This document shows positions 14,203 to 45,256 of a DNA stretch of 64,000 bases, piece after piece. A program made the position numbers and the translations under genes. The notes beneath the pieces are model-generated. The model saw only the letters and a list, made by a program, of their open reading frames with translations. It was not told the origin of the DNA and searched no databases. Numbering within the stretch: position 1 is the first letter of the stretch; each line of letters opens with the position of its first letter. The stretch comes from Priestia megaterium NBRC 15308 = ATCC 14581 (GTDB lineage Bacteria > Bacillota > Bacilli > Bacillales > Bacillaceae_H). The stretch lies in assembly GCF_000832985.1 (NCBI RefSeq), contig NZ_CP009920.1, positions 868,001-932,000 on the forward strand, in the 5' to 3' direction.

Positions 14203-14217
14203 TGATAATGATTTTCA
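14203..14217 (-). promoter_or_regulatory. Fur box 2 of the siderophore operon
   Basis: TGATAATGATTTTCA matches the 7-1-7 Fur operator with one mismatch. It lies between the likely transcription start and the dat ribosome site, so it would add a second repressor dimer. Confidence 0.8.
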
Positions 14218-14229
14218 TTAACAATTACA

Positions 14230-14259
14230 ACAATAAATGATAATGATTATCACTGTCAA
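14230..14259 (-). promoter_or_regulatory. Promoter and perfect Fur box of the siderophore operon
   Basis: On the minus strand TTGACA (14259-14254) and TATTGT (14235-14230) are 18 bases apart. The perfect 7-1-7 operator TGATAATGATTATCA (14238-14252) lies between them, so bound Fur would cover the promoter. This predicts repression by iron. Confidence 0.85.
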
Positions 14260-39811: not shown

Positions 39812-41638
39812 TTATTTTTTAAAACGGTACGGTACAGTTGTAACAATTACATTTTTACGGTAAAGCAAATGTGCTTTTAACAACAGACTGGACTGATTGT
39901 GAAGGATATTTTGCCAGCTTTTTTTCGTAATGAATTGCGGAATAACGACCGTAATAGCCATATTATTTTCCCGAGCTTTTTCCTCAGCCATATCGATGAA
40001 TCGAAACAGCGGCCGAACTAAGCTGCGGTATTGAGAATGAAACGTAACAATACGAATATCAGGCTGCCACTTCTCCCACTTCTCTTCCATTCTCTTTTCG
40101 CTTTCTCGATCAAAGGCCACATGCACTGCAATAACGGTATCGCCAATCGTTCTTGCATAATTTAATGAATTTTCTACTACCTTTGTCATTCCTGCTACAG
40201 GAACAATGACCACACTTCCTTCAAGCTTTCCAATCTTTTCTCCTTGCTTAATGCGAAGCTGCTCTCCTACCGCTTCATAATGCGTATGAATTCGATGGAA
40301 AATATAGACAATAACCGGTAAGAAAATGAGCACGGACCATACTTGTGAAAACTTCGTTGTAAACAAAATAATTAGCACCGTTAAGGTAATGAGGGCACCA
40401 ATTAAGTTAATGGTTAGCTTCCCTTGCCAGCCGGCCGGCTTTTCTCTAAGCCATTTGACAATCATGCCTGTTTGAGAAAGCGTAAATGGAATAAACACCC
40501 CGACTGCATAAAGAGGAATTAATTGTTCAGTCGCTCCTTTAAAAGCTACAATTAAGACAATAGAAGCAATTCCAAGGGTCACAATTCCATTTGAATAGCC
40601 TAATCGATCGCCACGAATTTGAAACATTCTTGGCATGTATTTATCAGACGATAAGTTGACAGCCAGCAAAGGGAAAGCTGAAAAGCCCGTATTCGCCGCT
40701 AGCACTAGAATTAGAGCTGTTGTGCCTTGAATAAAATAATAAAATCCATTTCGTCCAAACACACTCGATGCAATTTGTGATACAACCGTTTCATCTGCTT
40801 TTGGAGAAATGCCAAGCCAATAAGCTAAAAACGTGATGCCAGAAAATAAAACGGCTAAAATACCGCCCATCAGCATTAATGTATGAACAGCATTTTTTGC
40901 ACCTGGCTCTTTAAAGTTAGGCACTGCATTTGAAATAGCTTCTACACCTGTCAATGCGGAACAGCCTGATGAAAAAGCTTTTAATAATAAAAACAAACTA
41001 ATACCTGGCACTACTGTACCGAGAGATGGATGCAGCTCAGGTGAAACTTGACCCGTCGCTATTTTAAATAAGCCTACCGCTATTAACAAAATAAGAGCAA
41101 TAACAAATAAATAAACCGGATAAGCTAATACGGAAGCGGATTCTGTTACACCACGTAAATTTAAGACGGTAATAAAAATCACCAGCAAACACGCAATTAC
41201 TACATTGTAATGATGCAGCGCGGGAAAAGCCGAAGTTAAAGCATCGGTTCCTGCTGAAACACTCACAGCAACTGTTAAAATATAATCCACCAACAATGAT
41301 CCCCCAGCGATAAGCCCGGGATTTTCCCCTAAATTGGTTTTCGAAACAATATAAGCTCCTCCGCCTTGCGGATACGCATAAATAATTTGGCGATATGAAA
41401 GAATTAAAGCCGTCAGCAGAACCAATACCCCAAGCGCAATTGGAATCGAATACCAATAGGCAAGGACGCCGACTGTTGCAAGTACAATCAAAATTTGTTC
41501 TGTTCCATAAGCCACTGAAGATAAGGCATCTGATGATAAAATAGCCAGTGCTTTAAGCTTACTAAGTTTTTGGTCGCCTAACTCTTTTGTTTTAAGCGGC
41601 TTTCCAATCAATAATCTTTTGAGAACTGAATAGTTCAC
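39812..41638 (-). CDS. kimA: Potassium importer KimA (YdaO)
   Basis: 608 residues. The APC-superfamily transporter domain has about 12 membrane segments, from SSVAYGTEQILIVLA to IIVYIFHRIHTHY. A cytosolic C-terminal domain of about 150 residues includes GSVVIVPVAGMTKVVENSLNYAR. KimA imports K+ with H+ and is the gene controlled by the ydaO c-di-AMP riboswitch in B. subtilis (607 residues there). The same riboswitch precedes this gene, which makes the assignment firm. High c-di-AMP, signalling enough K+, should end transcription early. Confidence 0.95.
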   Translation of the reverse strand: MNYSVLKRLLIGKPLKTKELGDQKLSKLKALAILSSDALSSVAYGTEQILIVLATVGVLAYWYSIPIALGVLVLLTALILSYRQIIYAYPQGGGAYIVSKTNLGENPGLIAGGSLLVDYILTVAVSVSAGTDALTSAFPALHHYNVVIACLLVIFITVLNLRGVTESASVLAYPVYLFVIALILLIAVGLFKIATGQVSPELHPSLGTVVPGISLFLLLKAFSSGCSALTGVEAISNAVPNFKEPGAKNAVHTLMLMGGILAVLFSGITFLAYWLGISPKADETVVSQIASSVFGRNGFYYFIQGTTALILVLAANTGFSAFPLLAVNLSSDKYMPRMFQIRGDRLGYSNGIVTLGIASIVLIVAFKGATEQLIPLYAVGVFIPFTLSQTGMIVKWLREKPAGWQGKLTINLIGALITLTVLIILFTTKFSQVWSVLIFLPVIVYIFHRIHTHYEAVGEQLRIKQGEKIGKLEGSVVIVPVAGMTKVVENSLNYARTIGDTVIAVHVAFDRESEKRMEEKWEKWQPDIRIVTFHSQYRSLVRPLFRFIDMAEEKARENNMAITVVIPQFITKKSWQNILHNQSSLLLKAHLLYRKNVIVTTVPYRFKK

Positions 41639-41786: not shown

Positions 41787-41814
41787 TTTACACAGCTTAA
41801 ACCTCCTCTCCAAA

Positions 41815-41935
41815 ACGCTTATGGGGTTAGCTGTCGGATTCGGGCTATGAGAGTAGCCCTACCTTTTAAAAAAAGGATTCACCCCAAGTGACAATGCACA
41901 AATTTGGGTCCCCCACTTCTGACGAATTAAGCGAT
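41815..41935 (-). promoter_or_regulatory. ydaO-type c-di-AMP riboswitch
   Basis: On the minus strand the outer stem CGCTTAAT...CATAAGCG encloses the family's conserved blocks: GGGGGACCCAA, GTGCA, TTGGGGTGAAT, GGTAGGGC, and CCGAATCCGACAGCTAACCCC. Order and spacing match the ydaO/yuaA class. It precedes a terminator and kimA, the classical arrangement in which ligand binding turns the gene off. Confidence 0.95.
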
Positions 41936-42012
41936 AACAGGTCAATATAATTTTCGGTTAAAGGGTATGATCGATAACATGTTTCTTTCATAACTATCCT
42001 TTGTTCTTAGAT

Positions 42013-42134: not shown

Positions 42135-43193
42135 TTAACTTTTTGCTTTTAAAACGGCTGCTAGCTTGTTTTTCGTTTGAGGACCATAAATGCCATCCAC
42201 ATCATAAGGAAGATACACAAGCTGAAAACGTCTGACTGCATCTTTCGTTTGAACTCCATATATTCCGTCTACTGACCCTACTTTAAAATTAACTGCGTTT
42301 AATGCTTTTTGAAGCTGTTTCACGGCTTCTCCAGAATCACCTTGTTTTAAAATTCCATTTGGAAGTGGATATTGTTCCGAAGGTGGAGTTGGTGACGGTG
42401 TTGGAGATGGGTTTGGTGAAGTTCCTGAAGGAATAACAATTGTTTTTCCAACCTGTAGGGTTAAAGGATCAGAAAGCCCTTTATTTGCTTCTTGCAGCGC
42501 TTGTACTGTTATTCCGTACTTCTGTGCAATACTGTACAGCGTATCTCCTTGCTTGATCGTATACGTTTTTGTACCTGGTTCAGAAGGTGATGGATTTGGT
42601 GTCGGTGTCGGTGTTGGAGATGGTGATGGATTTGGAACTGCACGCCGAGGTAAATTTAAATATACGGCAATTCCTTTAGCATACGATTCACCCATACTTT
42701 TTAAAAAAGCTTCATTTTGAAGAAGTGCTGCATCGGCGCTCCTATCAATAAAAGCTATTTCAGTGAGTACTGCAGGCATATTTGTTAAGCGAAGCACCGC
42801 ATAATTGGCTGATTTTCGTCCGCGATTCGGATGATTATACGACAGCAGCGTTGGCTGTACTTGACCGTGCACAATCGATTGAAACGTTTTACTGGCATTG
42901 CTAGCGCTTCTATAAACATAATCTTCGTATCCTGTTCCTCCACCGGCATTTACGTGAATAGACATAAACGCATCTGCGCCCCACGAATTAGCTTGAGAAG
43001 CTCGCTGAGATAACGATAAAAAAACATCTGTGGTACGAGTGGTTTTAATCGTAAAATCACTGTACATGCTATTTAAATAGCTTATTAAATATTGTTGAAT
43101 TTTTAAAACTAAGTTTTTTTCATACAGTCCGTTCGCTCCAACTGCTCCTACATCTGCCCCACCATGTCCTGCATCAAGATAGATTTTTTTCAT
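42135..43193 (-). CDS. N-acetylmuramoyl-L-alanine amidase with LysM and PG-binding domains
   Basis: 352 residues. An Amidase_3 zinc domain (1-180) has IYLDAGHGGADVGAVG, the glutamate in YEKNLVLKIQQYL, SIHVNAGGG and VLTEIAFID. A Ser/Thr-Pro linker, a LysM domain (about 211-255, TYTIKQGDTLYSIAQKYG), a second Pro-rich linker and a peptidoglycan_binding_1 domain (about 278-345, LKQGDSGEAVKQLQKAL) follow. It cuts the amide bond between MurNAc and the peptide. There is no signal peptide: the catalytic domain starts at residue 3. That resembles CwlC/CwlH-type enzymes made in the mother cell late in sporulation, or endolysins; no phage genes are nearby. Confidence 0.92.
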   Translation of the reverse strand: MKKIYLDAGHGGADVGAVGANGLYEKNLVLKIQQYLISYLNSMYSDFTIKTTRTTDVFLSLSQRASQANSWGADAFMSIHVNAGGGTGYEDYVYRSASNASKTFQSIVHGQVQPTLLSYNHPNRGRKSANYAVLRLTNMPAVLTEIAFIDRSADAALLQNEAFLKSMGESYAKGIAVYLNLPRRAVPNPSPSPTPTPTPNPSPSEPGTKTYTIKQGDTLYSIAQKYGITVQALQEANKGLSDPLTLQVGKTIVIPSGTSPNPSPTPSPTPPSEQYPLPNGILKQGDSGEAVKQLQKALNAVNFKVGSVDGIYGVQTKDAVRRFQLVYLPYDVDGIYGPQTKNKLAAVLKAKS

Positions 43194-43274
43194 GTTACTT
43201 GTCCCTCCTTATTGTTAACATATGCACGAGCGAAAAAAGTGCTACGTATACTAGCCTACCAGGTGAAAAATCAC

Positions 43275-43386
43275 TAAAAAAAGACCCGCTGCCTAATGGT
43301 AACGGGTTATTCTGCTTTATAGACAGAATACTGAATAAGGGTAGCTCTCAAGGAGTGACAGCTATATGCAGAGTGTTGATTTGTTG
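43275..43386 (-). ncRNA. Candidate Fur-controlled small RNA (FsrA-like)
   Basis: About 110 bases on the minus strand run from a promoter covered by a perfect Fur box to a terminator (ACCCG...CGGGT then TCTTTTTTT, 43276-43305). No open frame with a ribosome site is present. It contains CACTCCTTGAGAG and TACCCTTATT; the CTCCTT stretch is complementary to Shine-Dalgarno sequences, as expected of an iron-sparing regulator such as B. subtilis FsrA. The locus differs from fsrA of B. subtilis as I remember it. Identity is inference from promoter, size, terminator and anti-SD motif. Confidence 0.55.
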
Positions 43387-43391
43387 ATTGA

Positions 43392-43419
43392 ATGATAATA
43401 ATTATCATTTTCATTTAAA
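43392..43419 (-). promoter_or_regulatory. Promoter with perfect Fur box for the small RNA
   Basis: TTTAAA (43419-43414) and TATCAT (43397-43392) are 16 bases apart on the minus strand. The perfect 7-1-7 operator TGATAATAATTATCA (43393-43407) overlaps the -10 and the spacer. Confidence 0.8.
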
Positions 43420-43467
43420 GTATACACTATGAGGAAAGTTTTGTCTATTTTATTATTAGATTTGGAG

Positions 43468-43569
43468 CTACTTAAAAAGCAGGATACCTATAACAATGAG
43501 AATAGTCCAAATTGGAATGCTTATTAATATGCCTATTACTAAACCTTTGAAAAAATTTCCTTCTTGCAT
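43468..43569 (-). CDS. 33-residue single-TM membrane protein
   Basis: An ATG at 43569 follows GTTGGAGAGGAATGGAATAAAA and opens a 33-codon frame. The protein starts MQEGNFFKG and continues as one membrane segment (LVIGILISIPIWTILIVIGI) ending in a single lysine. A negatively charged start, an uninterrupted hydrophobic helix and a good ribosome site argue for a real small membrane protein. It lies immediately upstream of the Fur box of the small RNA. No family is recognised. Confidence 0.6.
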   Translation of the reverse strand: MQEGNFFKGLVIGILISIPIWTILIVIGILLFK

Positions 43570-43879
43570 TTTTATTCCATTCCTCTCCAACAGTATTTTC
43601 TAATGACACTACGACTGGCTGAAAATTCTCTGAAGTTATACTGAAGTGCAGAGTGAACACATAAACAATCTCTCTATCTGTTATACACTACTTTTACATA
43701 TAGATTCAATGAGACAAAAAGCTTATCCTTTTTAATTCATATAACCAAATTCTTTCCTGTATATAACAAAACAACAAAAATCCTCCCGTAAATTTTACGA
43801 CAGGCAGTTATACTTGTTTTATAAACAGCTTAGTTCGATATTTAATATGCGCAATGTTATTCATTTTGAAAAACAAAAA

Positions 43880-43916
43880 AGTCCGAGAGAACGTATAAAC
43901 GATCTCTCGGACTTTT
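43880..43916 (-). terminator. glnA terminator
   Basis: Eleven-base arms AGTCCGAGAGA/TCTCTCGGACT, A-run and T-run outside; five bases after the glnA stop codon. Confidence 0.9.
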
Positions 43917-43921
43917 AGGAA

Positions 43922-45256
43922 TTAATATTGGCTCATGTATTGGTCACGTTCCCAAGGATGAACTTGTGTACGGAACATATCCCATTCGATTTCTTTCGCT
44001 TCAACGAAGTGCTCTGCTAAGTGTTCACCTAATGCAGAAACCATAACTTCGTTTGATTGGAAGCTATCTAAAGCTTGAGCTAATGTTGCAGGTAAATCTA
44101 CGATACCTTCTTCAACACGCTCTTCTTTTGTCATTACATAGATATTACGATCGATAGGTTTTGGAGCTTCAAGGTTGTTCTTGATTCCATCTAAACCAGC
44201 TTTTAATAGAACAGCCATTGCTAAATATGGATTAGCAGCTGGGTCTACGCTACGTACCTCAACACGAGTTCCTACGCCGCGAGAAGCTGGGATACGGATT
44301 AATGGGCTACGGTTGCGAGCAGACCATGCAACATAACAAGGAGCCTCATATCCAGGTACTAGACGCTTATAAGAGTTTACAGTAGGATTTGTTACTGCTG
44401 TAAAGCTGTGTGCATGCTTGATGATACCTGCGATAAATTGACGAGCAGTATCACTTAGCTCTAGATTACCGTTTTCATCATAAAATGCGTTTTGACCATC
44501 TTTAAATAATGAAACGTTACAGTGCATACCTGAACCATTCACACCAAATAATGGTTTTGGCATGAATGTAGCATGTAAGCCATGTTTACGTGCAATTGTT
44601 TTTACAACAAGTTTGAACGTTTGGATATCATCACAAGCTTTTAATGCAGCAGCATATTTGAAGTCAATCTCGTGTTGTCCAGGAGCTACCTCATGGTGAG
44701 ATGCTTCAATTTCAAAGCCCATTTCTTCAAGCTCTAATACGATGTCACGACGGCAGTTTTCACCAAGGTCAGTTGGCGCTAAGTCGAAGTAGCCACCTTT
44801 ATCATTTAATTCTAATGTAGGTTCGCCTTTTTCGTCTAATTTGAATAAGAAGAACTCTGGCTCAGGTCCAAGGTTAAAGTCAGTAAATCCTAACTCTTCC
44901 ATCTCTTTTAACACACGTTTTAAGTTATTACGTGGATCGCCATCAAACGGAGTTCTATCTGCATTGTAGATGTCACAAATAAAACGTGCTACTTTACCTT
45001 TTTCAGATGTCCAAGGGAAAATAACAAATGTATCAATGTCCGGGAATAGGTACATATCTGATTCTTCAATACGTACAAACCCTTCAATAGAAGAACCGTC
45101 AAACATCATTTTGTTGTCTAACGCTTTTTCTAGTTGACTTACTGGAATTTCAACGTTTTTAATTGTTCCTAAAATGTCAGTGAACTGAAGACGAATATAC
45201 TTTACATTCTCTTCTTGAACTTTGCGGAAAATATCTTCTTTTGTGTACTTTGCCAT
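43922..45256 (-). CDS. glnA: Glutamine synthetase (type I-alpha)
   Basis: 444 residues, the Gram-positive GSI-alpha length. Marks are [53 protein letters not shown], and [14 protein letters not shown]. It makes glutamine from glutamate, ammonia and ATP. There is no adenylylation insert; in Bacillus the feedback-inhibited enzyme instead controls GlnR and TnrA. It is cotranscribed after glnR with an 80-base gap, under GlnR-box control. Confidence 0.97.

Follow-up and report, generated by a model that had tools for sequence, protein, structure and literature searches.

A putative Fur-controlled small RNA gene with predicted ribosome-site-pairing segments between glnA and an amidase gene in the Priestia megaterium group

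Genes and features of the glnA-amidase interval

Between glnA and a cell-wall amidase gene of a 5.75-Mb Priestia genome lies an interval which holds a candidate gene for a small RNA (sRNA). The interval is part of the window, i.e. the whole stretch of DNA that was analysed, with a length of 64,000 nucleotides, which we infer to derive from a soil bacterium of the P. megaterium group. Members of this group are used industrially. An initial annotation had proposed a Fur-controlled sRNA at 43275-43419 and had given no strand; the candidate locus was found at this place on the minus strand, with the following features:

43922-45256, minus strand: glnA (name from inspection of the protein)
43471-43569, minus strand: 33-codon hydrophobic open reading frame (ORF) MQEGNFFKGLVIGILISIPIWTILIVIGILLFK, upstream neighbour, outside the transcript
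43419-43447, minus strand: putative promoter with -35 element TAGACA (43447-43442), 17-nt spacer and -10 element TATACT (43424-43419), 10 of 12 consensus matches
43393-43407, minus strand: Fur box TGATAATTATTATCA, perfect 7-1-7 pattern, 0 mismatches
43276-43412, minus strand: predicted sRNA of about 137 nt, start placed from the -10 element and end from the terminator
43366-43392, minus strand: A/C-rich 5' part, predicted to be single-stranded (folding, conservation)
43341-43365, minus strand: hairpin 1 with CUCCU (43355-43351) in the loop, proposed ribosome-site-pairing segment
43331-43341, minus strand: C-rich linker, CCCUUAUUC in the window and UCCCUAUU(C/U) in the orthologues
43308-43330, minus strand: hairpin 2 (UAUUCUGU...GCAGAAUA)
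43276-43307, minus strand: intrinsic terminator with a 7-pair stem ACCCGTT/AGCGGGT (43307-43284) followed by T7 to 43276
42135-43193, minus strand: amidase gene, downstream neighbour, with Amidase_3, LysM and PG_binding_1 domains (domain matches)

The upstream 33-codon ORF MQEGNFFKGLVIGILISIPIWTILIVIGILLFK is preceded by GGAGAGG 12 nt 5' of its ATG and is unbroken in five close genomes, whether or not these carry the sRNA; a Pfam search with it gave no match. On the downstream side, the amidase start codon follows the end of the terminator after 82 nt on the same strand, and this spacer contains a 26-nt block (43259-43234) which is identical in the three genomes carrying the sRNA and was also found in two relatives without it (G007 and G009). 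A sporulation-type promoter for the amidase gene, considered on the basis of a consensus, was dropped, as the implied start site falls on the ribosome site. Further along the window, a c-di-AMP (ydaO/yuaA) riboswitch was detected at 41801-41943 (minus strand; 109.1 bits) before a permease-like gene at 39812-41638.

Transcription signals and Fur boxes

In a simple scan, promoter-like sites in the region were not in excess (4 found, shuffle mean 7.0), and the promoter call therefore rests on position and conservation. On the opposite strand, the sole promoter-like site listed in 42400-44600 was at 44438. The Fur box TGATAATTATTATCA is located just downstream of the -10 element, at about +5 to +20 if transcription starts near 43412. 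It is the only one at the locus when up to two mismatches are allowed, and it is unchanged in G001 and G003, the two other genomes carrying the locus. Genome-wide, it is one of 4 perfect sites, the count rises to 13 if one mismatch is tolerated, and the reversed-pattern control gave 0. The perfect 7-1-7 box of the initial annotation was thus recovered at 43407-43393; a promoter-like site is also present, but the box lies downstream of the -10 element and does not cover the -35 and -10 elements as had been proposed.

The intrinsic terminator, expected within about 110 bases of the box, was confirmed, the distance from the end of the box being 85 nt to the terminator hairpin and 117 nt to the end of the T-run. 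A simple terminator scan with a loop limit of 8 did not contain it, the outer loop here being 10. Folding predicts the hairpin in all three orthologues, and its stem shows one two-sided compensatory change (C-G to A-U) and one one-sided change (U-G to C-G); in G003 one outer pair is broken.

By inspection, several of the remaining boxes precede what look like ABC or siderophore-uptake, FeoA-like and aminotransferase genes. In the window, two adjacent boxes at 14203-14252, one of them perfect, lie before a minus-strand aminotransferase-like gene and perhaps mark the start of a siderophore biosynthesis operon. Among the 13 Fur sites scanned, that of the candidate is the only one that is followed by a terminator but has neither a gene nor any other ready explanation. 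A second orphan box (L012, L175, L176) was set aside as an sRNA, as it holds a 30-codon hydrophobic ORF: at L012 1547-1639 (plus strand), and likewise at L175 and L176, the box is followed by this ORF (MVSLFVIGALATYVGVTTYVMKNIEKAQKA) and then by a terminator. The ORF is identical in the three genomes compared and likely encodes a Fur-controlled small membrane protein. Plus-strand terminator matches at L002 and L007 (with L166 and L169) were assigned, by position only, to the converging neighbour gene.

Predicted fold and reading frames of the RNA

The segment 43412-43274 is predicted to fold with an energy well below that of shuffled sequences (z = -4.8), and the three orthologous RNAs gave z values of -4.26, -4.12 and -3.96, with 0 of 200 shuffles as stable for each of them. 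A common layout is predicted for all three, in which an open 5' part is followed by hairpin 1, a C-rich linker, the second hairpin and the terminator. The linker is open in the two orthologues; in the minimum-energy structure of the window's RNA it is partly paired, as an extension of hairpin 1 takes up some of it. In hairpin 2, 8 pairs are retained wherever a sequence has letters at both positions. The transcript contains two pyrimidine runs of at least four nucleotides with CC, and the motifs named in the initial annotation, CTCCTT and CCCTT, are at 43355-43350 and 43341-43337, respectively.

No convincing ORF had been seen in the candidate before, and this was upheld, with the frames of at least 30 codons over the transcript being broken in both relatives. 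A 35-codon minus-strand frame (43414-43307) has a stop at codon 9 in both orthologues, and a 62-codon plus-strand frame starting from TTG (43199-43387) is cut or shifted in both. A 9-codon plus-strand frame (43366-43395) is positioned behind AAGGAG, which is the complement of the supposed anti-Shine-Dalgarno (anti-SD) motif; compared with G003, two of its codons differ, and the residue is changed at both.

Distribution and conservation in Priestia

By blastn, the locus was detected in 3 of 10 Priestia genomes, i.e. G000 (the genome of the window), G001 and G003. Among these three, invariant positions amount to 26 of 29 in the promoter, 28 of 29 in the Fur box with its surroundings, 23 of 24 in the 5' part (43389-43366) and 25 of 26 in hairpin 1 (43365-43340), i.e. 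90-97% compared with 55% just upstream of the promoter (11 of 20) and 69% in the terminator (22 of 32). For the linker and hairpin 2 the counts were 6 of 9 and 20 of 23, and as yardsticks the 33-codon ORF has 88 of 102 and the amidase gene 684 of 750 invariant positions. The excess conservation in the regulatory part is real but, with three sequences, moderate. Covariation over the whole structure was not above shuffles (172 of 500; one compensatory pair in three sequences), which is as expected because only three sequences were available.

G007 and G009 retain the 33-codon ORF as well as the amidase gene with its upstream block, and no match to 43285-43442 was found in their interval. In place of the sRNA, both genomes carry another segment (G009, L051; G007, L052) with a C-rich stretch of its own, a pairing region and a terminator-like hairpin, adjacent to a repeat-like element GAAGACTCCTG...CGAAGC. 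This segment had no Rfam match and is possibly another small RNA. Sixteen of the 30 Fur boxes of these two genomes were examined, and no box was seen to run into a terminator with neither a gene nor some other explanation; a substitute RNA may be located elsewhere in them. In G002, G004, G005 and G006 the flank lacks such an interval, and in G008 the contig ends about 470 nt past glnA. In the comparison of glnA and its upstream sequence among six genomes, G007 was nearest to G000 (98.7%, versus 98.2% for G001), while in a tree of the glnA region, with within-group supports of 0.60-0.98 and based on this one region only, G009 was placed near the outgroup. The presence of the sRNA is therefore not explained by a single step on the tree, and its absence from G007 and G009 would reflect repeated loss or an exchange of the segment.

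Wider searches were also conducted. A 25-mer of the window's own sequence had 0 exact matches in a species-level genome collection, and a 30-mer common to the three loci had one, in Priestia aryabhattai B8W22. A blastn search in 299 relatives matched 99 genomes at E <= 0.01, including G000, G001 and G003; with 2 candidates scored per genome among the matches listed, its sensitivity was limited. Most of the other matches listed were short and over the Fur-box part and were not taken as homologues, and further ones lay partly or wholly outside this part (e.g. query 1-42, 2-64, 69-93, 74-97 and 79-118). With a covariance model (R1), strict filters and 30 candidates scored per genome, the matches listed for 120 relatives comprised, apart from the 3 known loci, two weak candidates (L064 and L065); these were rejected as homologues since by eye no Fur box was visible in the sequence printed.

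Predicted pairing with ribosome sites

Interactions were calculated for a sample of 393 genes, taken from the window and 20 sampled stretches and covering about 8% of the genome, by a script with stacking and loop energies, a Shine-Dalgarno (SD) consensus and a simple gene caller; the energies are rough, and ranks were used. For a 711-residue Fe-S protein (L113) the row was unusable, as the caller had picked a late start. Over the 393 genes, binding to ribosome sites was stronger than binding to coding sequence by 2.60 kcal/mol for the loop segment (-0.41 to -2.52 in its four shuffles) and by 1.65 kcal/mol for the linker (-0.74 to -1.01 in its four shuffles). For whole hairpin 1 the difference was 0.97 kcal/mol (shuffles, +0.09 to +0.97) and for the 5' part 0.53, which is not above the shuffles of that part; no preference was seen with hairpin 2 or the terminator. 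Because the linker beats its four shuffles and the loop is nearly equalled by one, the linker looks clearly tuned to ribosome sites and the loop less clearly so in this model. The suggestion that the CTCCTT and CCCTT stretches suit pairing with ribosome sites thus holds in that both prefer them, with the reservation that one shuffle comes close to the loop. On ribosome regions, the pairing of segment 21-82 was on average stronger than that of its dinucleotide shuffles, with a mean z of -0.60 (sd 1.13, n = 197).

The targets of FsrA comprise sdhC, citB, leuCD and lutABC. Of these, sdhC ranked 4/393 by duplex energy with segment 21-82 and 21/393 with segment 21-137; 3 of 500 shuffles were at least as strong, and after normalisation it ranked 9/197. 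Once accessibility was counted by opening energies, its rank was 147/393, so that sdhC is strong by duplex energy but average with accessibility. Ranks by energy (segment 21-82 for citB, leuC and lutA) and with accessibility were 253 and 122 for citB, 128 and 175 for leuC, 252 and 196 for lutA, 17 and 70 for leuD, and 20 and 54 for a glcF-like gene (each of 393); in this model citB, leuC and lutA appear unremarkable, and leuD and the glcF-like gene lean weakly the same way as sdhC. The top accessible target in the sample was a cupin-like protein, named by inspection. The target lists are at noise level, for iron enzymes and otherwise. The script located the sdhC leader in 7 of 10 Priestia genomes. 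Five close genomes, among them the two without the RNA, share exactly the same 45 nt in front of the sdhC start, so that covariation between RNA and leader cannot decide. Wobble-tolerant exact matches to the anti-SD segment numbered 11 genome-wide including the locus itself, compared with 7 for the reversed pattern. Four of them are located before genes, by inspection none for an iron enzyme; these genes look like those of a lipoprotein, a flagellar hook protein, a single-strand-binding protein and a 217-residue secreted-type protein.

Relation to known Fur-repressed sRNAs

According to two reports (PMC12871923, PMC9410917), FsrA is a Fur-repressed sRNA of Bacillaceae whose C-rich stretches pair with ribosome sites; its length is given as 84 nt, and homologues are stated for Bacilli, Staphylococci and Listeria (PMC12871923). 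IsrR is described, in its report, as a Fur-repressed RNA with C-rich regions binding ribosome sites, and the Fur-repressed sRNAs of different lineages (RyhB, PrrF, FsrA and IsrR) as not orthologous but sharing targets (PMC9410917).

The candidate resembles FsrA in its predicted Fur control and in C-rich segments predicted to pair with ribosome sites, and FbpB-type proteins are encoded in Priestia. It differs in its predicted length of about 137 nt versus the 84 nt given for FsrA, and in that the anti-SD motif of FsrA is described as a single-stranded region between two helical ends, whereas the candidate has a hairpin loop plus a linker. At 43180-43600, a search up to E = 10 gave 6 matches, none of them to the FsrA covariance model (RF02273). 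At the Rfam gathering score, FsrA was absent from the window and no riboswitch or leader family was found at the locus; the sub-threshold families there (PrrF, mir-515, petD, anti-hemB, caiA and cyano-S1) were not accepted. Over its Rfam cut-off, FsrA was found in none of the 10 Priestia genomes, with the best 150 of 870-1353 candidates per genome scored, and among 14 control genomes in B. subtilis only. Because the model reached its cut-off in this one control, Priestia may contain a diverged FsrA. The single weak match, in G005 (30.1 bits), was rejected, since it was judged by eye to be a chance hairpin, with T residues behind it and an open frame immediately 5'. The earlier description as an FsrA-type iron-sparing RNA therefore stands only as an analogy: the RNA is not matched by the FsrA model, and of the FsrA-type targets tested sdhC alone stands out, when accessibility is left aside.

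FbpB-family proteins, which act as partners of FsrA in B. subtilis, were detected in all 10 Priestia genomes, with 4 matches in the window's genome, one of which is marginal and inside a 355-residue frame. One FbpB-family gene of this genome (contig C6, 4808734-4808847, minus strand) lies downstream of the aconitase gene (4809860-4812580) at a distance of about 1 kb, and by coordinates all 10 Priestia genomes have a same-strand FbpB match a few kb or less away from that to aconitase.

With IsrR, as described in its report, the candidate shares Fur repression, which here is predicted, hairpins with C-rich loops, a terminator and scant covariation in the first stems (PMC9410917). By the same description it is set apart by one Fur box and two C-rich segments compared with two boxes and three C-rich regions. 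IsrR has 174 nt and is given as present in all Staphylococcus genomes screened by its authors, whereas the candidate is patchy (PMC9410917). The comparison with PrrF (RF00444) gave 25.6 bits (E 0.026), the cut-off of 90 bits being far above this, and the alignment consists in essence of the 5' Fur box and the 3' terminator. A Fur-regulated sRNA of P. megaterium was not found described in the titles and abstract starts of the open-licence literature.

Interpretation and alternative explanations

At the sequence level, the promoter-like site, the box, the terminator and the conservation, together with the lack of a conserved ORF, support well the view that a terminated RNA without coding function is made here under Fur control, with motifs suited to ribosome-site pairing, and the locus is very probably a real Fur-controlled sRNA gene. 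The sRNA is probably directed at ribosome sites, as the interaction model suggests, and by analogy it is possibly iron-sparing. Taken as a whole, we somewhat favour a stand-alone, trans-acting Fur-repressed sRNA which blocks ribosome sites and, by analogy with FsrA and IsrR, acts on iron-enzyme mRNAs. In this mechanism, iron-loaded Fur would bind just downstream of the -10 element and repress transcription, and iron scarcity would release it. The CUCCU loop of hairpin 1 and the CCCU-type linker would then pair with the SD regions of chosen mRNAs and block their translation, while the terminator hairpin would stop the RNA before the amidase gene. By the same analogy, the targets would most likely be mRNAs of dispensable iron enzymes, with sdhC as the best single candidate tested.

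The RNA could also be a real Fur-controlled base-pairing sRNA with targets other than iron enzymes (uptake, surface or metabolic functions), or an RNA sponge. This we regard as unlikely: the cupin-like protein and others outrank sdhC, citB and leuC when accessibility is included, and the exact anti-SD matches precede genes of the lipoprotein, flagellar hook, single-strand-binding and secreted types, but the lists are at noise level either way, with about 8% of the genome sampled, and those Fur-repressed sRNAs that are known from Bacillus and Staphylococcus have an iron-sparing role, according to the reports (PMC9410917, PMC12871923). With the amidase gene on the same strand 82 nt beyond the terminator, the RNA might instead be a Fur-controlled leader with an attenuator that passes the iron status to the amidase. 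Such a role is improbable, as a compensatory change keeps the terminator stem, the amidase gene and its 26-nt block are retained in G007 and G009 without the sRNA segment, and no riboswitch or leader family exceeded its gathering score at the locus.

Patchy presence in the clade would suit a Fur site followed by a chance terminator, either a relic or fortuitous and in both cases without function; this reading has very little probability in view of the promoter, box and hairpin 1, which in the three sequences are conserved above neighbouring non-coding DNA. A very short mRNA is most improbable, even though suitable frames exist: the 35-codon frame starts right at the expected end of the transcript, has no ribosome site before it and stops at codon 9 in both orthologues, both codon differences of the 9-codon frame from G003 change the residue, both orthologues have the 62-codon frame in a cut or shifted form, and the only plus-strand promoter-like site listed in 42400-44600 is the one at 44438.

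The stand-alone sRNA favoured here is likely a new, lineage-restricted and patchy addition to the known class of Fur-repressed sRNAs, and probably one more independently evolved iron-saving RNA. As a tentative and rather doubtful extension, the P. megaterium group may lack FsrA and use its own, independently evolved iron-sparing RNA, with an anti-SD loop and a C-rich linker, encoded in an exchangeable segment which in some close strains is replaced by a different structured one, so that the response would vary between strains. If true, a further unrelated iron-sparing RNA inside FsrA's own family would extend the convergence among these RNAs, and near-identical genomes with and without it would provide a natural experiment on the worth of such an RNA.
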